NCBI RefSeq assembly: GCF_017352195.1 | Contig: NZ_CP071445.1 | Span: 2,852,001-2,916,000 of the forward strand | Reading direction: 5' to 3' | DNA from: Sedimentibacter sp. zth1 | Lineage (GTDB): Bacteria > Bacillota > Clostridia > Tissierellales > Sedimentibacteraceae | DNA: 64,000 bases | In this document: positions 3 through 13,747 of the stretch, one piece after another | Layout of the letters: the number at the start of each line of letters is the position of its first letter | How positions within the stretch are numbered: position 1 is the stretch's first letter | Notes under the pieces: generated by a model | Seen by the model: the letters and a program-made list of their open reading frames with translations, nothing else | What the model was told of the DNA's origin: nothing | The model's database searches: none | Position numbers and translations under genes: made by a program

Positions 3-3000
3 GCATTTTTACAAGATATAGATACTTTTGATTATAGGTTTTTTAAAATAACTCCAAGAGAAGCGATGATGATGGACCCAGCACAACGGAAATTTTTGGA
101 GACTGCTTATCATGCATTGGAGGATGCCGGCTATTCTACACAAAGTGTTAAAGGAAGTAAAACAGGTGTTTATGTAGGGTATGCAACTTTTGTGCAAAGC
201 AATTATGGACTAATGGCATATTCAGTGGATAAGTCTTTAATGTCAGATGGAATGGTTGGGAATATATCAGCATTAATGCCATCAAGGATATCATATTTTT
301 TAGATTTGAAAGGGCCTAATATTTTAATTGACACTGCATGCTCATCTTCATTAACTGCTCTTAATCAAGCTTGTGAAGGGTTGAAAAATGACGATTGTGA
401 TATGGCATTAGTTGGAGGTGTAAGATTAAATCTTTTGCCTGTTGAAAATGATTATATAAGTATTGGAGTACAATCCTCTGATAATATAACAAGAGCTTTT
501 GATGAAACTTCTGACGGCACGGGTTTAGGTGAGGGAATTGGTGTTTTGGTAATAAAGCGTCTGTCAAAGGCAATAAAGGATAAAAATAGAATTCATGCTG
601 TGATAAAATCAATAGCAATAAATCATGATGGAAATTCAATTGGAATTACTGCACCTAATGCAAATGCACAAACTGATGTTTTAGTTAATGCTTGGGAAAA
701 GGCTGGGATAAATCCTGAAACGTTAGGGTTTATTCAGACACATGGTACTGGCACAAAACTTGGAGATACGTTAGAATTGCAAGGTATTTATAATGCTTTT
801 AAAAAGTATACTGATAAAAAGCAAATTTGTGCTATTAGTAATGTTAAATCTAATATGGGACATTTATTTGAGGCGTCAGGTATGGTAAGTATTATTTCAA
901 GCATTTTGTCATTGAAATACGGATGTTTGCTTCCAACAATTAATGTCAATAAACCAAGTAAGCAAATTGATTTTATAAATTCGCCGGTATATATAAATAC
1001 AAAGCTACGCAAATGGGAAACCAAGTTAGAAAGAAGATGTGGAGTAAGCTCATTTGGACTTGGTGGAACTAACTGTCATATTGTGTTAGAAGAACAGCCT
1101 AAAATAGTTGATGAAAATATATTAAGTGAAGATTTATATATGTTAGTTATATCAGCAAAATCTAAGGCTTCATTGGAGCGGCTTGTAAAACAATACATAG
1201 TTCGATTTTTTGAATTAAGTGAAGATGTGGCAAGATTATGTTATTCATCTCAAGTTGGGAGAACCCACTATAATTATAGATTAGCAGTTTTAGGTTCAAA
1301 TAAAAAGGATATTTATAATCAGCTGATAAAATATTCTAAGGGCGAAAAATCTGATAATATATTATACGGGGAACACAAAATTGTACCTGCTAATAAATCT
1401 GTAAGACAAGATAGTGAAATTACTCGTGAAGACATTATAAAAATGAATGAATTAGCTTTAAAATATATTCTTATTTATAAAAAATTATCTTCTGAAAAGA
1501 AAATACAAATATTCTATGAAATTGCAAAATCATATTCTAAAGGTGCTGATATTAGATTTGAAGATATGTATAACAGTAAATATGTAAAAACTTATTTACC
1601 ATTATATGAATTTGAGAACGAACATCTTTGGTTCCCAATGAAGGCTTCTAATTGTTACTCGCTAAAATGGGAAAAAGTTGATGGAATTATTTTTGCAAAC
1701 GATAGTTATTTATCTAATTATGTATATTTATATGTTGATAATAGTAAATGTAAAGAAGCAGTTGTGTCAGAAATTCTAAAAACTAAAGCAAATGTAATTG
1801 AGCAAAAAATATTAAATAAAAGTATAGATATTTTAAATGAAGATGTTAATGAGCTTGGATTTATTATTGATATAACGGGTATGAATAGCATAATTGATTG
1901 CAATACAGATAATATAAATAATTTCTATAATCAAATTAATAGTGTTTATTCTGTATTACAAAAGCTATGTAAAGAAACTTTTAATGGTAAAAAAATACAT
2001 ATATTTATCATTGGGGATAATTGTAATCATATATTAGATAATGATAAAACTAATCCATATCAATGTGCTGTTTTAGATTTTAGTAAGTCAATTGAAAAGG
2101 ATTGTAATTCAATAACAATAAGCAGCATCGATATTGATAAAAATAGTAAATCGATTAATCTGATTAGTAATTTCTTGGTGAAGAACAATTCTGAAAAATA
2201 TATTGCAATAAGAGAAGGTAATATTTATCGTCAGTTATTTGGTGAAAATGAATCTAATAAAAATCAAATGATAAAATTGAAAAAAGAAGGAGCATATGTT
2301 TTTACTGGTGGATTAGGTGGAATTGCTTTAACTATTGCCGACTATTTTTGTAATTTAGAAAAGATAAACATAGTAATTATAACGAGAAGAAATATTTTAA
2401 AAGATAAGGATTTAGATACATTAACTAATGATGCTTCTATTCAAGATAGTTTAAAAGAAAAAATAAGAGATTTAATTCTGTTAAAAGGGAAATGTGGAAG
2501 TTTAGAAATCATTTCGTGTGATATTTCTGATGGTAAAAAGGTTAATGAAGTAATAAATAATACAAGGAAAAAATATGGCGAAATTAATGGAATAGTTCAT
2601 GCAGCAGGTGTCGCAAAAGATATAAGTATTCTTGAACGACAAAATACTTTGTTAATAGATGATATTGTTAAACCAAAAATTCATGGCACAATTAATATTC
2701 ATAATGCAACACTTAAAGATAATTTGCAATTTTTTATTATGTGTTCATCTATTGCTACAGTATTTAGTTCTATTGGTCAAACAGACTACATTCTTGCAAA
2801 TGCATTTATGGATGAATTTTCTTGTTATAGAAGAGAGTGCGGTTTGCCATCTTTGACAATTAATTGGTGTACATGGAAAGAAAAAGGAATGGCACATGAT
2901 GCTGGTTTTACCATTGATACTATTTTCAAGGCAATGACTTGTAAAGATGCAATAAATGGTTTTGAAAATGCATTGAAGCTGAATTGTGCAAGAGTAACTG

Positions 3001-6000
3001 TTGGATATATAAATGAAAATGGTGGATTGCGTTTATTAAATAAATCTCAAGTTTTATTATATGGAAGATTAAAAAGAAAGCTCACAAATAATAATATAAA
3101 AAATATTGAAAAGCAGCAAAAAAAGCAAGATTCTCAAAACTCATCTTTAATATTAAAAGGAAAGTCGGATGATAGTTACACAATCACAGAGAAAAAAGCA
3201 AGTGAGGTTTTTGCAAATATTTTAGGGTATTTAGAAATTGATGTTTATGATAATTTTTTTGAAATGGGTATGGACTCTATTTCTGGAATAAAAATTGCGC
3301 AGGCTTTATCAGAAAAACTTAATTTAGAATTAGGTGTTGTTGATATTTTAAAGTACAATTGTATATGTGATTACTGCAAATATATTGAGGGACTTTCACA
3401 AAGTGACGAAGTTGATAATCAAATAACTGTTTTAGAAACAAATAATTTCCCAGAAAAATTTTTATTATCACCATCTCAAAGAGGAATTTATTTGCTTAAT
3501 AAAGTACAAAATAAGAGTACTAATTATAATGTGTCAAACGTTGTTGTGCTGTCAAAAAAAATTGAAATTGATAAAGCAACCACTGCTTTGCAGGAGCTTA
3601 TTAACAGGCATGAAATGTTAAGAACATCATTTTATGATAGCGATGGTGAGTTGTATCAAATAACACATAACGAGGTTAATGCACAAATCGAATATGAAGA
3701 GCGAACTGAAGGAGAGATTAAAGATAACTTTTCTGAAATATTTGATAAGTTTATAAGACCATTTGATTTATCTAAAGCGCCATTAATTAGAATAAAAATT
3801 TTAAATACAGATAGTAAAAAGAGTATTGTTATGTATGATATTCACCATATTGTTACTGACGGTATTTCCAATGAGATAATTATTAGAGATTTTCTTTCTT
3901 TATATAAGGGCGAAAAATTACAGCCGATTACATGTTCATATAAAGAATACGCTAAGTGGTATGAGGATGGATTTGAAAACAATGCATTTAGTAAACAACA
4001 GGAATTTTGGCTTGATAAATTTAGTGGACAGCTTCCATTAATTGATTTGCCAACAAAAAATGGTCGTAATAATAGATTAACATATGCTGGTTCACACATA
4101 AAGTTTGAAATATCAAAAGATACAATGCAAGCGATTAAAAAAATGTGTAGTTCTGAGCAGACAACGTTGTTTGTGATGCTATTAGCAGTTTTCAATCTAA
4201 CGTTATATAAATATTCCAATCAAAAAGATATAATTATAGGTAGTCCTATTGTTGGAAGAAATAATAACAAATATAAAGATGTTGTAGGTATGTTTGTTAA
4301 CACTGTTGCAATAAGAAATATTCTAAATACTAAATTGACTTTTAAAGAATTCTTAATGAGCATAAAGCAAAATGTACTTGAAGCATTTAATTATCAGGAA
4401 TATCCATTTAGCTATATTGTTGAGAAGTTAGATGTAAGAAGAGATCTTGGAAGAAATCCTATATTTGATATTATGTTTGTTCTTCAAAATTATGGCATCA
4501 ATAAAAGCGGAGGAGATTATTTTGATGTTATTGATCAAGTAGAAAATGGTGTATTTAATAAAGCGTCTAAGTTTGATATTTCATTAAGTGCTGTTGAAGA
4601 AGAAAATAGAATAATTTTTGATGTAGAATATAGCACACAATTATATTCGGAACAAATACTACAATGTTTGGTTAATGATTATTTAGCAATCATTGAAGAG
4701 GTATTAGAATTTCCTAATAAGTCAATTGACAATATGAGTTTAATTTCTCAGGAATCTAAGCAGTTGATTTTAGAAGATTTTACAAATAAAGATTATGAGT
4801 ATGATAAAAAAATGACTGTTAATGATTATTTTGATAAATCAGTTAAAACATATTCTGATAAGACGGCAATTGTTTATAAGGACAATAGTTATACATATAA
4901 AGAACTTGGAGAAAGAGTTAATAAGTTAGCTGGTTACTTGAGAAGCCAAAACATTGGTAATGATGATTGTGTTGCTATATATCAAAAAAGAAATATTGAT
5001 ACAATTGTTTCAATTTTGGCAGTATTAAAAAGCGGAGCTGCTTTTGTTCCGATTGACATGTCGTATCCAGATAGTAGAATTGAGTATATTCTTGAGGACA
5101 GTAATGTAAAGGCTGTAATTGTTAATAGTGAGGATAATGGTGCTATTCCAAGTAATGTTAACAGTATCAATATTAATTCAATCGATTTTGATAGTTTATC
5201 AAACGATGTTATTAAAACTAATTCTGCTAATGATTTGGCGTATATTATGTACACATCTGGCTCAACGGGAATGCCAAAAGGAGTTATGATTGAGCATAGG
5301 AATATAATCGCATTTGTAAATGGTTTTTTCAGTGAATTTGGATATAGCGAAGAAAGAATTATGCTTCAACAATATTCATATGCATTTGATGGATACAATG
5401 AGGAAGTTTATACAACATTATTTTCTGGTTCAAAACTGGTTATAGTTGATAAAGAAGATGTTTTGGATATGAAAAAGCTTGATAATATTATAACTACACA
5501 TTCTATAAATATTATAAGCGTTTCCGCTGTACTGTTTGCTCAGATTGGGAAATATATAAATAATCGGTGTCTGAAAACTGTTATATCTGGTGGAGATGTG
5601 ATGAAATGTAGTTATATAGACTCTTATGATGCATCATTACAACTATATAATAGTTATGGACCGACAGAAGCGACATGTTGTGCTACATATTATAAAATTG
5701 ACAGAGATAATATTACAAATAGTGTTCCGATTGGGAAAAATTTAGCTAATTATAAAGTTTATATTATGGATGATAATTTAAACTTTAATCCAATGGGTGT
5801 TGTTGGTGAAATATGTATAAGCGGGAATGGTGTAGCAAGAGGATATTTGAACAAAGATAATTTAACAAAGATTAGCTTTGTTTATAGTCCATTTATTAAT
5901 GAAGTAGTTTATAAAACAGGGGATTTAGGAAAATTCGATGAAAGTGGTGAAATAATATTCTGTGGCAGAAAGGACAGGCAGTTAAAAATTAGAGGTTTTA

Positions 6001-7814
6001 GGATAGAAGTATCTGAAATTGAAAAGTATTTAATGAGCTATCTAAAGCCGGATGGGATTTATATAGGACCTGTTGAAATAGTTGAAGGTAGTAAAACTTT
6101 ATGTTGTTATTTAGTAATGAAAGAAGAGCCTGTAATAAAGGAAATTAAAAAATATCTAAAGAAACATCTACCAGAATATATGATTCCAACATATTTTGTA
6201 AATCTTGATAAATTGCCATATAACCAAAATGGAAAAGTTGATATAAAGTATTTACCTTTACCTACTCAGGAAGATTGTACTAAAACTGTTTATGTTGCAC
6301 CAAGAAATGAAATAGAGAGAATGCTCATAGAAATTTATTGTGAGGTTCTTATACTTGAGCGGGTAGGAGTAGAGGATAATTTTTTTGATATAGGTGGAAA
6401 TTCAATAAAAGCAATTGAAATATTATCAAAAATTATTGAGCAAGGTTTTCTAATTGATATAAATATGTTATTTGAATATCAAGATATAGAAAGCTTAGCT
6501 AAGGAAATGAGTACCATGAGCAGCGAGTATATGACTAATAGACTTGATTATTTAAAGACATCTGCTATTGAAGATGGAATTAAACTTAAAAAAGAATTTG
6601 AAGATGATAAAGAAATGCTTGATAAGATATCTAAATATAATAATCAAGTTGGAAAAATTGCAGGGAATAGCATTAAGGGGTCTGTTAATTATAAGAATGT
6701 TCTTTTGTTGGGAGCTACTGGTTATTTAGGAGGATATTTATTGCATAATTTTTTGAAACAAAATTATAAAAATATTTATTTAATTGTAAGGTCAATAGAT
6801 GTAGAAAAAGCATTTGAAAAATTAAGAAAGAACTATAATTACTATTTTGAAGATTTTCTTTTTGACGATAATATTGATAAGATACATGTTTTTTGTGGAG
6901 ATGTTTCCCTTAAGAAATTTGGGGTAACGGAAGAAGAATATTCTGAAATGCTTGAAAATGTTGACTGTATAATTAACTCTGCGGCGTTAGTAAAGCATTA
7001 CGGTGAGTATGAAGAATTTCTTAAAGTAAATGTTGATACGGTAAGTAATTGTATTGAAATTATTGAAAAATCTCCTAAAGTAGCATTTCATCATATTTCA
7101 ACAGTAAGTGTTGGTTCAGGATATATTGAAAAGAAAAAGTATGACGTGTTCACTGAATATGATGTGGATATAAACCAAGTTGGTGATAACAATTATGTAA
7201 ATAGTAAGATTGAAGCAGAACGTCTTATTGAGAAGAAGCGTCAGGAAGGTCGGATAATTACTGTATATCGTGTTGGAAATTTAGTCTTTAATAGTAAGAA
7301 TGGTAAATTCCAAAAGAATATTAATACAAGTGCATTTTATAATTTGTTAAAAACAGTTATTGAGATCGGCAAAGTTCCGGACATTAATGATATTAATGTT
7401 GATTTTTCATATATTGATTATGTTGCAAATGGCATTATTAGTTTATTTGATAAGAAAGAATTAATAGGACAAAATTGGCACGTTTTTAATCAGTATTCTA
7501 TTGGATTAGTTGATTTAGTCAAGATTATCAATAAAAAGCTAGGGAAAGACAAAAAAATAGAAATATTGCAGTTAAATGAATTTATTGAATTTATAGAAAA
7601 CAATTTAAATAGTGAAAAATATGGTTCTATAATAAGAGATTTGATTATCAAGACTGGAATCATGAATGATGTAGATAGTGTAACTGATATTCGTGTATTA
7701 CAACAGAAATCTATAAATGTACTAAAAGCTTTAGGTTTTAAGTGGGAAAAAATTGATAGCGAAAAAATAAGTAAGATGTTAGATTATTGTAAAAGCATCG
7801 GATTTATTGAATAA
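3..7814 (+). CDS. trans-AT hybrid PKS-NRPS synthase (KS-KR-ACP-C-A-PCP-R), 5' end outside window
   Basis: The reading frame is open from base 3, and the bases before the first ATG (66) still encode ketosynthase sequence, so the gene starts outside the window. Seen in order: KS with active-site Cys in DTACSSS (codon 339-341) and both histidines (HGTGT at 741, GHLFEASG at 861); then a linker ending LPLYEFENEHLWFP (about 1597-1638) where an AT would sit, but no AT; KR with TGGLGG (about 2290-2330) and catalytic Ser/Tyr (about 2745, 2787); ACP with Ser 3276-3278 in GMDSIS; condensation domain with HHIVTDG (3843-3863); adenylation domain (about 4800-6270) with YTSGSTGMPKG and Lys 6234; PCP with Ser 6402 in GGNSIKA; terminal reductase with GATGYLGG (about 6711) and YVNSK (7194). 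It should extend a chain with one ketide, reduce it, add one amino acid and release the product by NAD(P)H reduction. Aligned by eye with GrsA, the A-domain pocket reads roughly D-G-E-S-I-G-S-C-C-K; I cannot assign the amino acid. Confidence 0.93.
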   Translation, partial: AFLQDIDTFDYRFFKITPREAMMMDPAQRKFLETAYHALEDAGYSTQSVKGSKTGVYVGYATFVQSNYGLMAYSVDKSLMSDGMVGNISALMPSRISYFLDLKGPNILIDTACSSSLTALNQACEGLKNDDCDMALVGGVRLNLLPVENDYISIGVQSSDNITRAFDETSDGTGLGEGIGVLVIKRLSKAIKDKNRIHAVIKSIAINHDGNSIGITAPNANAQTDVLVNAWEKAGINPETLGFIQTHGTGTKLGDTLELQGIYNAFKKYTDKKQICAISNVKSNMGHLFEASGMVSIISSILSLKYGCLLPTINVNKPSKQIDFINSPVYINTKLRKWETKLERRCGVSSFGLGGTNCHIVLEEQPKIVDENILSEDLYMLVISAKSKASLERLVKQYIVRFFELSEDVARLCYSSQVGRTHYNYRLAVLGSNKKDIYNQLIKYSKGEKSDNILYGEHKIVPANKSVRQDSEITREDIIKMNELALKYILIYKKLSSEKKIQIFYEIAKSYSKGADIRFEDMYNSKYVKTYLPLYEFENEHLWFPMKASNCYSLKWEKVDGIIFANDSYLSNYVYLYVDNSKCKEAVVSEILKTKANVIEQKILNKSIDILNEDVNELGFIIDITGMNSIIDCNTDNINNFYNQINSVYSVLQKLCKETFNGKKIHIFIIGDNCNHILDNDKTNPYQCAVLDFSKSIEKDCNSITISSIDIDKNSKSINLISNFLVKNNSEKYIAIREGNIYRQLFGENESNKNQMIKLKKEGAYVFTGGLGGIALTIADYFCNLEKINIVIITRRNILKDKDLDTLTNDASIQDSLKEKIRDLILLKGKCGSLEIISCDISDGKKVNEVINNTRKKYGEINGIVHAAGVAKDISILERQNTLLIDDIVKPKIHGTINIHNATLKDNLQFFIMCSSIATVFSSIGQTDYILANAFMDEFSCYRRECGLPSLTINWCTWKEKGMAHDAGFTIDTIFKAMTCKDAINGFENALKLNCARVTVGYINENGGLRLLNKSQVLLYGRLKRKLTNNNIKNIEKQQKKQDSQNSSLILKGKSDDSYTITEKKASEVFANILGYLEIDVYDNFFEMGMDSISGIKIAQALSEKLNLELGVVDILKYNCICDYCKYIEGLSQSDEVDNQITVLETNNFPEKFLLSPSQRGIYLLNKVQNKSTNYNVSNVVVLSKKIEIDKATTALQELINRHEMLRTSFYDSDGELYQITHNEVNAQIEYEERTEGEIKDNFSEIFDKFIRPFDLSKAPLIRIKILNTDSKKSIVMYDIHHIVTDGISNEIIIRDFLSLYKGEKLQPITCSYKEYAKWYEDGFENNAFSKQQEFWLDKFSGQLPLIDLPTKNGRNNRLTYAGSHIKFEISKDTMQAIKKMCSSEQTTLFVMLLAVFNLTLYKYSNQKDIIIGSPIVGRNNNKYKDVVGMFVNTVAIRNILNTKLTFKEFLMSIKQNVLEAFNYQEYPFSYIVEKLDVRRDLGRNPIFDIMFVLQNYGINKSGGDYFDVIDQVENGVFNKASKFDISLSAVEEENRIIFDVEYSTQLYSEQILQCLVNDYLAIIEEVLEFPNKSIDNMSLISQESKQLILEDFTNKDYEYDKKMTVNDYFDKSVKTYSDKTAIVYKDNSYTYKELGERVNKLAGYLRSQNIGNDDCVAIYQKRNIDTIVSILAVLKSGAAFVPIDMSYPDSRIEYILEDSNVKAVIVNSEDNGAIPSNVNSININSIDFDSLSNDVIKTNSANDLAYIMYTSGSTGMPKGVMIEHRNIIAFVNGFFSEFGYSEERIMLQQYSYAFDGYNEEVYTTLFSGSKLVIVDKEDVLDMKKLDNIITTHSINIISVSAVLFAQIGKYINNRCLKTVISGGDVMKCSYIDSYDASLQLYNSYGPTEATCCATYYKIDRDNITNSVPIGKNLANYKVYIMDDNLNFNPMGVVGEICISGNGVARGYLNKDNLTKISFVYSPFINEVVYKTGDLGKFDESGEIIFCGRKDRQLKIRGFRIEVSEIEKYLMSYLKPDGIYIGPVEIVEGSKTLCCYLVMKEEPVIKEIKKYLKKHLPEYMIPTYFVNLDKLPYNQNGKVDIKYLPLPTQEDCTKTVYVAPRNEIERMLIEIYCEVLILERVGVEDNFFDIGGNSIKAIEILSKIIEQGFLIDINMLFEYQDIESLAKEMSTMSSEYMTNRLDYLKTSAIEDGIKLKKEFEDDKEMLDKISKYNNQVGKIAGNSIKGSVNYKNVLLLGATGYLGGYLLHNFLKQNYKNIYLIVRSIDVEKAFEKLRKNYNYYFEDFLFDDNIDKIHVFCGDVSLKKFGVTEEEYSEMLENVDCIINSAALVKHYGEYEEFLKVNVDTVSNCIEIIEKSPKVAFHHISTVSVGSGYIEKKKYDVFTEYDVDINQVGDNNYVNSKIEAERLIEKKRQEGRIITVYRVGNLVFNSKNGKFQKNINTSAFYNLLKTVIEIGKVPDINDINVDFSYIDYVANGIISLFDKKELIGQNWHVFNQYSIGLVDLVKIINKKLGKDKKIEILQLNEFIEFIENNLNSEKYGSIIRDLIIKTGIMNDVDSVTDIRVLQQKSINVLKALGFKWEKIDSEKISKMLDYCKSIGFIE

Positions 7815-7832: not shown

Positions 7833-8678
7833 ATGAAAATTGGTATTATTGGTGCAGGTGTTATGGGAAGTGGTGTCGCAGAACGCTTTTCAAAATATGG
7901 ACATGAGATTAAGATTGTAGACATTAATGAATCAACATTCGATAACTCGAGAACAATTATCAAAAATAGTGTTAGAATGACAAATATGTTTAGCAAAGGT
8001 CAGGAAAAAGTTGATTACAAAGCTTTGTTGGATAATATAACATATTCAACAGAATATGTTATATTATCTGATGTTGACATCGTAATTGAAAATGTTGTAG
8101 AGAAAGTTGATGTAAAAAAAGGTGTGTATGAAAAGTTAGAAAAGGTTTGTAAAGAGGAGTGTATCTATCTTGTTAACACATCATGTATTTCAATAACAAA
8201 GATTGGTAGCTTTACAAATAGAGCGGATAGAGTAATTGGTACTCATTTTATGAATCCAGTTCCTATGAAAAAAGCGTGTGAGGTTATTTTAGGACATTAT
8301 ACCTCTGAAAAAACTATAGACCATCTTAAAGAAGTTTTGAAAAATGTTGATATTAAACCTATTATTGTAAATGATTATCCTGGATTTGTTTCAAACAGAA
8401 TATCTCATTTGTTAATGAACGAAGCTGCATGTGTTGTGCAAGATAATGTGGCAACACCAGAAAATGTTGATGCAATCTTTAAGTTATGTTTTGGGCATAA
8501 AATGGGGCCTTTAGAAACAGCTGATTTAATTGGTATTGATACAGTTGTTGATTCCTTAGATGTTTTGTATGAAAATTATCATGACCCTAAATTTAGAGTT
8601 GCACCAATATTAAGAAAAATGGTTGATGCAAAACTATTTGGTAGAAAAAGTGGGGAAGGTTTCTTCAAATATAAGTAA
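7833..8678 (+). CDS. 3-hydroxyacyl-CoA/ACP dehydrogenase family (FkbK/ZmaG-like)
   Basis: A 281-residue NAD-dependent dehydrogenase of the 3-hydroxybutyryl-CoA dehydrogenase family. The N-terminal Rossmann motif GIIGAGVMGSG occupies residues 4-14. The catalytic set is present: Ser in NTSCIS (about 117-120), His138 in GTHFMNP, Glu150 and Asn188 in PGFVSNR. Length is normal for the family. It starts 18 bases after the synthase stop, behind a strong AGGAGG. With an ACP and an FkbH protein immediately downstream, the likely job is oxidation of glyceryl-ACP to 2-hydroxy-3-oxopropionyl-ACP, as proposed for FkbK in FK520 and ZmaG in zwittermicin biosynthesis, rather than butyrate metabolism. The role is inferred from context; the fold and cofactor site are clear. 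Confidence 0.85.
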   Translation: MKIGIIGAGVMGSGVAERFSKYGHEIKIVDINESTFDNSRTIIKNSVRMTNMFSKGQEKVDYKALLDNITYSTEYVILSDVDIVIENVVEKVDVKKGVYEKLEKVCKEECIYLVNTSCISITKIGSFTNRADRVIGTHFMNPVPMKKACEVILGHYTSEKTIDHLKEVLKNVDIKPIIVNDYPGFVSNRISHLLMNEAACVVQDNVATPENVDAIFKLCFGHKMGPLETADLIGIDTVVDSLDVLYENYHDPKFRVAPILRKMVDAKLFGRKSGEGFFKYK

Positions 8679-8746
8679 GTGAATATTAAAGTTGTTAATT
8701 TTAAGTATATAGTTAATACATAAAATAATATTAAAGGAGAATTATT

Positions 8747-9001
8747 ATGGAAGTTAAAAGAAAAATTAGAATGTTTATGAAGAGATTTTTTAGAAATGAG
8801 GAATTTACTGATGATGATAATATTTTTGAAAATGCAGTAAATTCATTGTTTGCAATGCAATTAGTATTATTTATTGAGAACGAGTTTGATATTGAGGTCG
8901 ATAACGATGAATTAGATTTGGAAAACTTTAGTTCTGTTAATGCTATTGTAAAGTATGTTGAATCAAAAGTTGTTGATTTGAAGGAGGAAAGTGTGATTTA
9001 G
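8747..9001 (+). CDS. Discrete acyl carrier protein
   Basis: An acidic 84-residue carrier protein with the phosphopantetheine serine at residue 33, in NSLFAMQLV. The usual Asp before that serine is Asn here (NSL rather than DSL). The helix II region LFIENEFDIEV is typical. A GGAG site lies just upstream of the ATG. It sits between the dehydrogenase and FkbH-like genes, so it is probably the dedicated carrier for the glycerate-derived unit (FkbJ/ZmaD role). The stop codon TAG (8999-9001) is in the same frame as the next gene, only 18 bases before that gene's first ATG. Confidence 0.88.
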   Translation: MEVKRKIRMFMKRFFRNEEFTDDDNIFENAVNSLFAMQLVLFIENEFDIEVDNDELDLENFSSVNAIVKYVESKVVDLKEESVI

Positions 9002-9019
9002 TTTCTATCTATATCATAC

Positions 9020-10069
9020 ATGAAAAATATGAGAAGTAAAATAAAATGTGTTGTATGGGATCTTGATAATACTTTGTGGGAAGGTATTTTATCTGAAGAT
9101 AGTAATGTACACTTAAGGCAAAATGTTTTTGATATTATTACTGAATTTGATAATAGGGGAATTCTTCAGTCAATATGCAGTAAAAATGATTATGACCAGT
9201 CAATGGATAAATTAAAGGAGTTGAAAATTGACCATTTCTTTGTATATCCTCAGATTTCGTGGAATCCAAAATCAGACGGAATTAAAAATATTAGGGAACT
9301 AATAAATATTGGTATAGACACATTTGCATTTATAGATGATCAGGAATTTGAAAGAGAAGAAGTTAATTATAAATTACCTGAGGTTATGTGTATAGATGCA
9401 ACACAAATTAATGATATTTTATTAAATGAATATTTTAATCCTACTCATCTTACAAATGATTCAAAGAATAGAAGACTTTTATATCAAAATGATATTGTAA
9501 GAAACAATATTAAAGAAGAGTTTAAGGGAACAGAAGAAGATTTTTTAAGAATGCTTGATATGAAATTCACTGTTAGCAAGGTTAAACAGGATGATTTGGC
9601 AAGAGCTGAAGAATTAACTATAAGAACACATCAGCTTAATGCAACAGGTGTTACATATTCATATGATGAACTAGATAGATACAGTAAAGATGATAATTAT
9701 CTTGTATTAATCGCACGGCTTGAAGATAAGTATGGTGATTATGGGGCAATTGGTTTAGCCTTGGTAGAAAAAGAAGAAACAAAGTGGACTTTAAAGCTAT
9801 TATTAATGTCCTGTCGAGTTATGTCAAGGGGTGTGGGCTCTGTTTTGTTAAATTATGTTGCTAATAAAGCAAAGGAGGCTGGTGTTGATTTGTATGCAGA
9901 ATTCATTCCAACAGATAGGAATAGAGTAATGTTTATTACATATAAATTTTCTGGCTTTCGTAAAGAGTATGAGAAAGATGGAATTGATGTTTTAAAGCTT
10001 AATATGGATAAAATAAGTGAAATTGTTGACTATATAAAATTATATGAAGGGGACTTGAAAAATGTATAA
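9020..10069 (+). CDS. FkbH-like HAD-superfamily glyceryl transferase/phosphatase
   Basis: 349 residues. The HAD nucleophile motif DLDNTLW lies at residues 14-20 (Asp14 and Asp16), followed by FkbH-family sequence and a C-terminal GNAT-like half (SCRVMSRGVGSVLL region). FkbH proteins take 1,3-bisphosphoglycerate, dephosphorylate it and load D-glycerate onto a carrier protein; that is family knowledge. The partner carrier is the preceding gene. The only in-frame starts after the ACP stop are ATG 9020 and ATG 9029, and neither has a Shine-Dalgarno site close by. The nearest one (AAGGAGG, 8981-8987) is inside the ACP gene, so translation is probably coupled to it. The last 8 bases overlap the acyltransferase gene. 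Confidence 0.88.
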   Translation: MKNMRSKIKCVVWDLDNTLWEGILSEDSNVHLRQNVFDIITEFDNRGILQSICSKNDYDQSMDKLKELKIDHFFVYPQISWNPKSDGIKNIRELINIGIDTFAFIDDQEFEREEVNYKLPEVMCIDATQINDILLNEYFNPTHLTNDSKNRRLLYQNDIVRNNIKEEFKGTEEDFLRMLDMKFTVSKVKQDDLARAEELTIRTHQLNATGVTYSYDELDRYSKDDNYLVLIARLEDKYGDYGAIGLALVEKEETKWTLKLLLMSCRVMSRGVGSVLLNYVANKAKEAGVDLYAEFIPTDRNRVMFITYKFSGFRKEYEKDGIDVLKLNMDKISEIVDYIKLYEGDLKNV

Positions 10070-11318
10070 GTTATCATTTGTTTTTCCAGGACAAGGCTCA
10101 CAATATGTAGGTATGGGAAAAGGAATTTTTGAGGAATATAAAATAGTTCAAGAAACCTTTGAGGAAGCTTCAGATGTTTCTTCTATTGATGTGAAGAAGT
10201 ATTGCTTTGAAGGCTCACTTGCACAATTATCACGTACAAAAAATGCACATATTTGCATACTAACCTGTGGAATAGCAGCTTTTAGAGTATTTACGCAGGA
10301 AATTGGATATGCACCACAATTTATGGCTGGGCATAGTCTTGGTGAGTACTTAGCATTAACAGCTGCTGGAGTATGGAGTTTTGAAGATGCAATTAAAATT
10401 GTTGGGTTAAGAGCTGATTTGACGAAATTAGCTGTCAAGGAAACTAATGGTGGTATGACTATTATTGAAAATATTTTAACTGAAAAAGTTGAGGATATTG
10501 TTAAAACAATGAGAGATAAGGGCAAAAAAATATATATTTCAAGTTATTCAACTATGGACCAGACAGCTATTTCAGGAAATGTTGATGATATAATGTTATG
10601 TGAAGATGAGCTTTTTAAGGCTGGCGGACAATTAACTCCACTTGTAGGTAGTGCACCTTATCATTCACCACTTATGCAACCGTATGCAGAAGAGCTAAAA
10701 AAAGAGATTGAAAAAATTGAATTACATGATTTTAGATATCCAGTAATATCAAATGTTACAGGAAAGCCTTACAAGGATATTAGTGATGTTTCAGAGGGAC
10801 TTGCTAAGCATTTGACGCATCCTGTTTTATGGAGGCAGACAGTTGATTATTTAGATAATAAGGGAGTTGATTTAGTAGTAGAAATGGGCCCTAAAAATCT
10901 TGTAACAAATATTATAAGAAATCATAGTGAAGATATAAAGGCTGTTTGTCTTGGTAATAAATATGAAAGAAATGAATTGTTTGAGCTATATAAAAATAAT
11001 GAAATGTATAGTAAGCATATTCCAACTATTATAACAAAATGTATGGTTGCAGCAGTATCGACTCCTAATCAGAATTGGGATAACGATGAGTACGAGAAAG
11101 GTGTAGTTGTTCCATATAAAAAAATACAAGAAATTCAGCAGCAATATGAGGATAGTAAAATAGAACTAACATATGAAGTGAAACAAGAAATACTTAATTT
11201 ATTAAAGAGAATATTTGAAACTAAGTTTCTTCCCCAAAAGGAGCAGGATGAATGGATTAGTCAGATTTTAGAAGAAACGGGTAATAACTATTCTTTTAAA
11301 GATTTTGTGGCTCAATAA
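10062..11318 (+). CDS. Discrete (trans-acting) malonyl-CoA:ACP acyltransferase
   Basis: 418 residues. The N-terminal GQGSQYVGMG is typical of acyltransferases, and the nucleophile elbow GHSLGEY carries Ser92. The substrate-selecting segment reads SAPYHSPLM, in the place where malonyl-specific enzymes have an F-H-S type motif. About 115 residues follow the catalytic domain, including NQNWDNDEYEKGV. From memory this resembles the extension of FenF/ItuD-type discrete ATs in lipopeptide clusters. The ATG overlaps the FkbH-like gene by 8 bases. It supplies the AT activity the synthase lacks, the hallmark of trans-AT assembly lines. Whether it also loads the unusual extender unit cannot be read from sequence. 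Confidence 0.9.
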   Translation: MYKLSFVFPGQGSQYVGMGKGIFEEYKIVQETFEEASDVSSIDVKKYCFEGSLAQLSRTKNAHICILTCGIAAFRVFTQEIGYAPQFMAGHSLGEYLALTAAGVWSFEDAIKIVGLRADLTKLAVKETNGGMTIIENILTEKVEDIVKTMRDKGKKIYISSYSTMDQTAISGNVDDIMLCEDELFKAGGQLTPLVGSAPYHSPLMQPYAEELKKEIEKIELHDFRYPVISNVTGKPYKDISDVSEGLAKHLTHPVLWRQTVDYLDNKGVDLVVEMGPKNLVTNIIRNHSEDIKAVCLGNKYERNELFELYKNNEMYSKHIPTIITKCMVAAVSTPNQNWDNDEYEKGVVVPYKKIQEIQQQYEDSKIELTYEVKQEILNLLKRIFETKFLPQKEQDEWISQILEETGNNYSFKDFVAQ

Positions 11319-12023: not shown

Positions 12024-12536
12024 GCAATAAATAAAGAGAAAATATTTATGAGTTCTATACACAAAAACAAAGTATTAGAAATAGTGAAAGAAATAAGAGA
12101 AGAGTTAGAATTTTATGTTATTGCCTATTGTATTATGGATAACCATATGCATTTGTTAATCAAAATTGATGAAGAAAAATTGGGAACATTAATGAAAAAA
12201 ATTAATGTAAAGTATGCTATGTATTATAATAAAGTTGAAAAAAGATATGGACATGTATTTCAAGATGGATTTAAAAGTGAAGCAGTGGAGGACGTTAATT
12301 ATTTAATAGGTGTTTTGAGATATATACATAATAACCCTGTTAAAGCAGGCATAGTAAAAAATATAGAAGAATATAAGTGGAACAGTGTAAGTGAGTATAT
12401 AAAAAAGGAAGAGTTAGCTGAAATATTATTAAAATTAGATATAATTTCTTACAGAGATATAGCAAATATATGTAATTTATCTTATTATAAAGTTGCTGAC
12501 ATAGGGAAAGGAATAAAAAGTGATTGTATCAATTAG
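12024..12536 (+). pseudogene. REP-associated tyrosine transposase (RAYT/Y1_Tnp), 5'-truncated
   Basis: The first ATG is at 12048 (162 residues), but family-like sequence (INKEKIF) runs in frame back to 12024, where a stop and foreign DNA begin. About 30 N-terminal residues usual for the family are missing. The HUH metal-binding motif is clear in YCIMDNHMHLLI. The typical GHVFQDGFKSE and YIHNNPVKAGIV segments follow, with an HTH-like tail (SYRDIANICNL). RAYTs are single-strand DNA transposases associated with REP palindromes. The REP-like AAGAACCGTCCC lies immediately after the stop, at 12538-12549. It is probably inactive. Confidence 0.8.
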
Positions 12537-13252: not shown

Positions 13253-13747
13253 AGGAATAAATAAAGAGAAAATATTTCAGAAAGAAATATATAAAAACAA
13301 AGTAATAGAATAATCAAAAATATAAAAGGAGAAATGGGCATGTGCTTTAAGACAGATGTAGAAGCGAAGCAGTAGAAGATGATACTTATATGCTAGGTGT
13401 GCTGATATATATACATAATAATCCCATGAAAGCAAAAAGTGAAATATTGGATTTATTTAAAAATAAAAAAGATTTTAAAAAATTTCATAATAGTAGTGAC
13501 GATAATATATATATTGATACAAAAGAAGAAAAGCAAGATAATATTGAAAATATAGTAAATAATACAATTGAAAATTTTGCAAATGAAAATCAAATTACAG
13601 ATCAAGTTCAATTTTCACAGATAAAAAAAAGAAGAATTAGTAGCAAGACTTTTAGAATTAAATGCTATAACATACAGCGATATAGCAGACTTATGTAATT
13701 TAAGTATATATAGAGTATTTGAAATAAAGAAACAAAAAGATGAATAA
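13253..13747 (+). pseudogene. RAYT transposase relic
   Basis: Pieces of the same family as 12024-12536, in order but in several frames: GINKEKIF at 13253, SEAVEDDTYMLGVL and YIHNNPMKA around 13370-13435, and the C-terminal HTH-like ITYSDIADLCNLSIYRV ending at stop 13745-13747. The central HUH region is deleted and an A-rich run near 13622-13630 marks a frameshift. The open frame 13390-13698 is only part of this relic and then runs out of frame. REP-like sequence follows at 13769-13777. Confidence 0.75.

Follow-up and report, generated by a model that had tools for sequence, protein, structure and literature searches.

In the zwittermicin pathway, as set out in the published account (PMC4207774), glyceryl-acyl carrier protein (ACP), the aldehyde, and the acid arise in that order through ZmaN, ZmaG, and ZmaE, and an enediol has already been proposed for the ZmaE step. 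According to a report from 2017, hydroxymalonyl-ACP is confined to certain Bacillus, Xenorhabdus, Paenibacillus, and Streptomyces, and no O-methyltransferase lies close to the butyrolactol A cluster (PMC5355916). A related locus is analyzed here in Sedimentibacter sp. zth1, starting from a 64,000-nucleotide stretch (the window, G000:C1:2852001-2916000) of its genome, which is a single contig of 3.13 Mb. In this window, an FkbK/ZmaG-like 3-hydroxyacyl dehydrogenase, a free ACP, and FkbH are encoded side by side. Gene content and order, the phylogeny and residues of an acyl-CoA dehydrogenase (ACAD), and the association of this ACAD and the electron-transfer flavoprotein (ETF) subunits EtfB and EtfA (together, ACAD-EtfBA) with FkbH, dehydrogenase, and ACP genes in other genomes suggest that the locus probably encodes a complete extender-unit pathway, in which hydroxymalonyl-ACP would be made and the FkbI/ZmaE-type oxidase would be replaced by an ETF-linked acyl-ACP dehydrogenase.

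The three cassette genes all lie on the forward strand of the window. The dehydrogenase (281 aa, positions 7833-8678) exceeds the Pfam cut-offs of 3HCDH_N and 3HCDH, the FkbJ/ZmaD-like ACP (84 aa, 8747-9001) scores 29.8 bits against a PP-binding cut-off of 20.8, and FkbH (349 aa, 9020-10069) reaches 283.7 bits for TIGR01686, the cut-off of which is 146.65. A first-pass annotation had read these open reading frames (ORFs) as FkbK-FkbJ-FkbH, and their presence and domain matches bear this out. FkbH is 47-57% identical in alignment to five cassette FkbHs and up to 66% identical to relatives in named genomes, while other FkbH-like matches in most genomes searched reach only 22-34%; in an FkbH tree, it joins the cassette FkbHs. 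Judged by these comparisons, it is an FkbH of the extender-unit kind. The dehydrogenase is 43-70% identical to dehydrogenases of FkbH loci; others of this kind reach at best 44% in 61 genomes, its own included, where a second copy is 39% identical. Because the two identity ranges touch, the FkbK-type assignment rests also on gene order. FkbH-like stretches were also seen within very long open frames in genome G689 (locus L151, 3-8543; 30% identical) and at G237:C1:670990-672021 (22%), which are probably loading domains of megasynthases.

The first-pass annotation had considered the cassette incomplete for lack of an FkbI/ZmaE oxidase, and had suggested that such an enzyme might be encoded upstream. 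The ACAD family PF00441 indeed has no match within the window, but two places in the whole genome carry one, and one of these heads the gene cluster to which the cassette belongs, 28 kb before the window. The window start falls inside the last megasynthase and hence cuts the cluster, so the apparent incompleteness is due to the window edge and describes the window rather than the locus. The cluster consists of 15 co-directional genes (G000:C1 2823934-2863318; 39,385 bases) with a largest gap of at most 79 bp, in the order ACAD, EtfB, EtfA, FtsX-type permease, ABC ATPase, HlyD-type protein, ABC exporter, thioesterase, three megasynthases, dehydrogenase, ACP, FkbH, and acyltransferase (AT). The ACAD, which is the proposed oxidase (G000:C1:2823934-2825106), EtfB (G000:C1:2825116-2825916), and EtfA (G000:C1:2825919-2826899) are thus the first three genes, all on the forward strand like the cassette. 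The upstream search therefore yielded an ACAD, as had been guessed, though not one of FkbI type (see below) and no FkbG. At a threshold of E 0.001, scans of all 15 proteins of the cluster detected no methyltransferase domain (for the last megasynthase, 2603 of 2698 residues, the part inside the window, were scanned), which agrees with the annotated absence of the O-methyltransferase FkbG, and the unit would consequently stay hydroxymalonyl. An FkbI-type ACAD was also sought elsewhere in this genome and none was found, the better of the two ACAD places being 37% identical to an FkbI-type reference. EtfA likewise occurs at two places, with the second ACAD/EtfA pair lying near 1.68 Mb.

Two types of oxidase can be distinguished across FkbH loci. 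A profile of six FkbHs was run against named genomes and flanking ORFs were labelled by BLAST; since only the best 80 of at least 546 relatives were kept, the sample leans toward relatives of this FkbH, and flanks of about 10 kb on both sides were covered in only 48 of the 80 loci, with L037 and L073 lying on short contigs. An FkbI-type ACAD occurs in the flank of 64 loci, with EtfA or EtfB in none of them, while a second type, 65-75% identical to the ACAD of this cluster, occurs in nine, all of which have EtfB and EtfA. The Fisher test for nine of nine versus none of 64 gives 1e-11, a value to be read with the related genomes not being independent and the flank lengths differing. No flank among the 80 holds both types. 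In the second-type loci, ACAD-EtfB-EtfA directly follows FkbH in eight of nine, the dehydrogenase is in the flank in seven of nine, and two ORFs together make up the ACAD in L048 and in L059; the order in Ruminococcus flavefaciens ATCC 19208 is ACAD-EtfB-EtfA-dehydrogenase-(ACP)-FkbH. An ACAD is absent from the flank in seven loci. In one of these, L109, about 25 kb separate FkbH from ACAD-EtfB-EtfA on the same contig, the genome of L032 contains an ACAD fragment that is 71% identical, the contig of L090 also carries an FkbI-type ACAD at a distance of about 31 kb, and the genomes of L080, L089, L099, and L108 encode ACADs that are 48-52% identical to the FkbI-type reference, typed by identity only. 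Seven more loci outside the 80, some on plasmids (L025-L031), are all of FkbI type without ETF. In Alkalihalophilus and G162, the order dehydrogenase-ACP-FkbI-FkbH-AT is that of the present cluster plus FkbI. As every FkbH locus followed has an ACAD either in its flank (73 of 80) or in its genome (seven of 80), direct use of glyceryl- or 2-hydroxy-3-oxopropionyl-ACP by the synthase, the other option raised by the first-pass annotation, has lost its main support. A single origin of the oxidase swap was considered and not upheld: on the well supported branches of the FkbH tree, the ACAD type must have changed at least twice, and L109 sits in this tree among FkbI-type Bacillota (the outgroup has long branches, and some of the joins carry flags).

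The phylogeny of the ACADs separates the same two groups. The tree comprises 95 sequences, namely 11 ETF-linked ACADs (that of this cluster, those of seven of the nine second-type loci, the split ones being left out, and those of the L109 genome, G689, and G563), 39 FkbI-type ACADs thinned from 72, and 45 others, with a root set for drawing only. All 11 ETF-linked ACADs form one clade (100/99), the 39 FkbI-type ACADs share a 98/96 fork with a single ACAD from a Streptomyces plasmid, and ordinary ACADs of the phylum fall between the two. By this placement, the cluster-head ACAD is not of FkbI type. In an alignment of 128 sequences, the position that we take to be the usual ACAD catalytic base is Glu in all 11 ETF-linked ACADs, and Gln in 67 and Glu in five of the 72 FkbI-type ones, while an alternative base position is Glu in all 11 and Gly in all 72. 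The five FkbI-type ACADs with Glu at the catalytic position are those of L087, L094, L101, L106, and L151.

Structural comparisons lead toward enzymes acting on carrier proteins. A profile of ten ETF-linked ACADs has the prolyl-ACP dehydrogenase AnaB as its best match (392 bits), and the predicted structure of the ACAD (mean pLDDT 83.2) aligns with AnaB at Z 46.1 (372 residues aligned, 2.0 Å) and with PigA at Z 45.4 (376 residues, 2.3 Å); many other ACADs follow closely, Z being 40 at the fiftieth of the matches listed. The nearest known structures act on carrier-protein substrates, a point in favor of the proposed acyl-ACP dehydrogenase. The FkbI of known structure, 1r2j, which was left out of the tree, scores 215 bits (rank 12) against the cassette ACAD of Streptomyces and 160 bits against that of Alkalihalophilus, and is not among the best 60 or 50 matches listed for the ACAD of this cluster. 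NCBIfam cut-offs are reached neither for PigA and RedW (339.4 of 500 and 305.1 of 650 bits) nor for the AcrCBA equivalogs (287.3 of 640, 99 of 475, and 160.5 of 600 bits). The nearest ETFs of known structure are 5ol2, 6fah, and 7qh2 for EtfA and 7qh2, 6fah, and 4kpu for EtfB, which places the ETFs of the cluster nearest those of Bcd, Car, and Lct.

Other occurrences of this ACAD type were sought in genomes of the phylum and of the class. Some ACAD match occurs in 209 of 398 genomes of the phylum, and after the genome's own ACAD, the matches listed, which lie outside such sets, are at most 43% identical; a threshold of E 1e-100 is passed in three of 391 genomes of the class, namely this one, G689 (74%), and G563 (54%). 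G689 has the order dehydrogenase-ACP-ACAD-EtfB-EtfA-polyketide synthase (PKS), with FkbHs on other contigs, and also encodes ACADs nearer the FkbI type. In G563, ACAD-EtfB-EtfA-ACP-dehydrogenase is followed by a stand-alone adenylation (A) domain of code DVWHVSLID (L147, G563:C27, 5187-11189), which we take to be of serine type, and the genome has no FkbH match. This set is a candidate ETF-linked aminomalonyl-ACP cassette. ACAD-EtfBA accompanies the dehydrogenase and ACP even with a different loaded unit, as expected if the last oxidation is carried out by ACAD-EtfBA. In G874, the ETF-linked set shares a contig with the dehydrogenase and FkbH, and at a distance of 11 kb this contig also encodes an ACP and an ACAD 46% identical to the FkbI type. 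These latter two (L153, G874:C233, 3436-6344) stand beside an A-domain-like ORF with a code that looks glycine-like by eye, a stretch that possibly provides a second ACP-bound unit in G874.

In the literature searched (titles and abstract openings, with most subscription journals outside its scope), no ETF-linked FkbH cassette is described. For the anaerobe Vallitalea guaymasensis L81, one report (PMC6163223) mentions an ACAD-Etf near a dehydrogenase, interpreted there as belonging to beta-oxidation, as well as a PKS cluster with a dehydrogenase resembling that of zwittermicin; the ACAD-Etf gene number (1149) is close to those of PKS genes 1164 and 1168 in the same source. This ACAD-Etf might be an unrecognised ETF-linked cassette.

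The chemical steps, electron flow, oxygen independence, and AT role that follow are all deduced from these genes. FkbH would place a glyceryl unit from 1,3-bisphosphoglycerate onto the free ACP, and the FkbK-like dehydrogenase would use NAD to convert the primary alcohol of glyceryl-ACP to the aldehyde. The hydrated aldehyde would then lose its alpha proton and a beta hydride to the cluster-head ACAD, giving an enediol and from it 2-hydroxymalonyl-ACP, while the FAD of the ACAD would be reoxidised by the dedicated EtfBA instead of oxygen. The unit would finally be incorporated into a lipopeptide-polyketide that is released reductively. The presence of two dehydrogenases fits this pathway because the conversion of a primary alcohol to an acid takes two dehydrogenations, and an ACAD with ETF may suit the aldehyde-to-acid step since an enediol can form and ETF accepts electrons without oxygen. 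The ETF-linked variant is probably oxygen-independent, and coupling of its ETF to NAD or ferredoxin is possible given the proximity to the ETFs of Bcd, Car, and Lct.

Several observations weigh against this pathway. Here, 34.7 kb separate ACAD-EtfBA, which neighbors export genes, from the dehydrogenase, and the L032 genome has an ACAD only as a 71% fragment at a contig end, where no ETF is visible. Some of the closest ETFs serve enzymes operating in the reductive direction (Bcd, Car), and with Glu versus mostly Gln at the catalytic position, the same chemistry in both ACAD types is not a given. The idea of one type per genome had to be rejected, as G689 and G874 hold both, and the exclusion holds per flank. 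FkbI-type cassettes also occur in Pseudobacteroides and Desulfobacteraceae, which we presume from their names to be anaerobes; the equation of the ETF type with anaerobes is thus not upheld, and oxygen alone does not explain the oxidase swap. Lastly, a single AT gene was seen in the cluster (10062-11318, forward strand, overlapping FkbH by 8 bp; Acyl_transf_1 over cut-off); it encodes a discrete enzyme with a GHSLG motif, and the ZmaA-AT paper ties GHSxG to CoA-bound and GYSxG to ACP-bound units (PMC4207774). GHSLG is also found in discrete ATs beside FkbH of several FkbI-type clusters (e.g., L030, L034-L036, and L110), while L151 has GYSLG. Many clusters of Bacillota pair FkbH with a discrete GHSxG AT even though the genes next to it should yield an ACP-bound unit, and the motif rule may not be valid for these ATs.

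Three other explanations have to be weighed. ACAD-EtfBA could act on another acyl group, for instance by desaturating or reducing a fatty acyl starter, with the cassette stopping at glyceryl- or 2-hydroxy-3-oxopropionyl-ACP for direct use, the option that the first-pass annotation had regarded as new chemistry. Such a role would be consistent with the location of ACAD-EtfBA and the cassette at opposite ends of the cluster and with the AMP-binding domain, read as a fatty acyl-AMP ligase, that opens the first megasynthase; yet in all nine other loci that have this ACAD-EtfBA in the flank, it forms a direct run with FkbH, and it stands with the dehydrogenase and ACP in G563 and G689, which makes this explanation unlikely. 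The haliangicin starter, it is true, is desaturated by the ACAD HliR, but that pathway has HliI besides HliR (PMC4768178), and the sole other ACAD here is 38% identical and lies beside EtfA near 1.68 Mb.

The order of the two oxidations could also be reversed, in that the ACAD would act first on glyceryl-ACP by alpha,beta-dehydrogenation to an enediol and then aldehyde, followed by the dehydrogenase acting on the hydrated aldehyde, with hydroxymalonyl-ACP still as product. All 11 ETF-linked ACADs have Glu at both candidate base positions, where most or all FkbI-type ACADs have Gln and Gly, so the half-reactions of the two types need not match. The dehydrogenase common to both cassette types, however, suggests the same step in both, and the published ZmaG/ZmaE order puts the ACAD last (PMC4207774); the reversed order is thus quite improbable. 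As a reductase resembling Bcd and acryloyl-CoA reductase, ACAD-EtfBA could instead let the cassette yield a reduced C3 unit such as lactyl-ACP, in line with the NCBIfam acryloyl-CoA reductase being the third best model (287 bits, cut-off 640) and with the ETFs lying nearest those of 5ol2, 6fah, and 7qh2. This is very improbable: no dehydratase was seen in the domain scans of the cluster, the 3-hydroxyacyl dehydrogenase would be left without a role, and the G563 set stands with a serine-type loader.

Beyond this locus, it is conceivable, though held with less than even confidence, that an acyl-ACP dehydrogenase coupled to ETF and independent of oxygen has arisen apart from FkbI in some bacteria, probably anaerobes. 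Such an enzyme would make hydroxymalonyl-ACP where FkbH loads the unit and aminomalonyl-ACP where a serine loader does so, and the low-potential electrons released on going from aldehyde to acid would reach NAD or ferredoxin by way of a bifurcating-type ETF. If so, such an ETF would tie extender-unit supply to anaerobic energy metabolism. A second, ETF-linked oxidase, if real, would show how other bacteria, including Ruminococcus flavefaciens, can make such units, and the combination of ACAD-EtfB-EtfA with either FkbH or a serine-type A domain would provide a signature for mining. Such an oxidase would also sharpen the question of what the electron acceptor of FkbI/ZmaE is and why most of these enzymes are without the usual catalytic glutamate.

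The remainder of the cluster is a megasynthase system. The first megasynthase has three AMP-binding, one ketosynthase (KS), two condensation (C), and four carrier domains, and its A-domain codes DILQFGMVW and DILQFGVVW are presumably glycine-like; the second has two KS, two ketoreductase (KR), and two carrier domains. The last, with the Pfam domains KS-KR-ACP-C-A-peptidyl carrier protein (PCP)-thioester reductase over cut-off and no AT domain, occupies window positions 3..7814 on the forward strand and starts 283 bases before the window (G000:C1:2851718-2859814). The third A-domain code reads D-G-E-?-I-G-S-C-C, with one position unreadable. Upstream of the cluster lies a phosphopantetheinyl transferase gene (G000:C1:2821294-2822022; L003), and the ORF between the two, on the opposite strand (2822257-2823576), probably encodes a transposase, as it has a helix-turn-helix and matches an integrase core weakly. 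On the other side, shortly after the cluster ends, window positions 12048-12536 hold an IS200-like transposase ORF (Y1_Tnp over cut-off), and 13390-13698 appears by eye to be a second fragment of this kind.

Among known systems, the hydroxymalonyl-ACP cassettes of zwittermicin (ZmaN, ZmaD, ZmaG, and ZmaE) and butyrolactol A share FkbH, the free ACP, and the 3-hydroxyacyl dehydrogenase with this locus, which differs in having an oxidase of another ACAD clade, its own EtfBA, and a different pattern of catalytic residues. The methoxymalonyl-ACP cassette (FkbG-FkbK) has counterparts here of FkbH, FkbJ, and FkbK, while no FkbG was found in the cluster and no FkbI-type ACAD in the genome. In the zwittermicin aminomalonyl-ACP cassette (ZmaJ, ZmaH, ZmaI, and the shared ZmaG), the serine-derived unit has its own ACAD, ZmaI, and the dehydrogenase is predicted to serve both units (PMC6395733). 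The G563 set parallels it but is ETF-linked, and in the present genome the loader is FkbH. By profile and fold, the prolyl carrier-protein dehydrogenases AnaB, PigA, and RedW are the nearest ACADs of known structure; compared with AnaB and PigA, the ACAD here is about 34-37% identical in the fold alignments and is accompanied by EtfBA. A dedicated EtfBA beside a flavoenzyme is likewise seen in Bcd-EtfAB, the caffeyl-CoA reductase CarCDE, Lct, and acryloyl-CoA reductase, enzymes of energy metabolism whose substrates are CoA thioesters or lactate. Taken with these systems, the locus most likely works like the known hydroxymalonyl-ACP pathway yet departs from it in one defining feature, the FkbI-type ACAD, and is thus not a plain member of that family.

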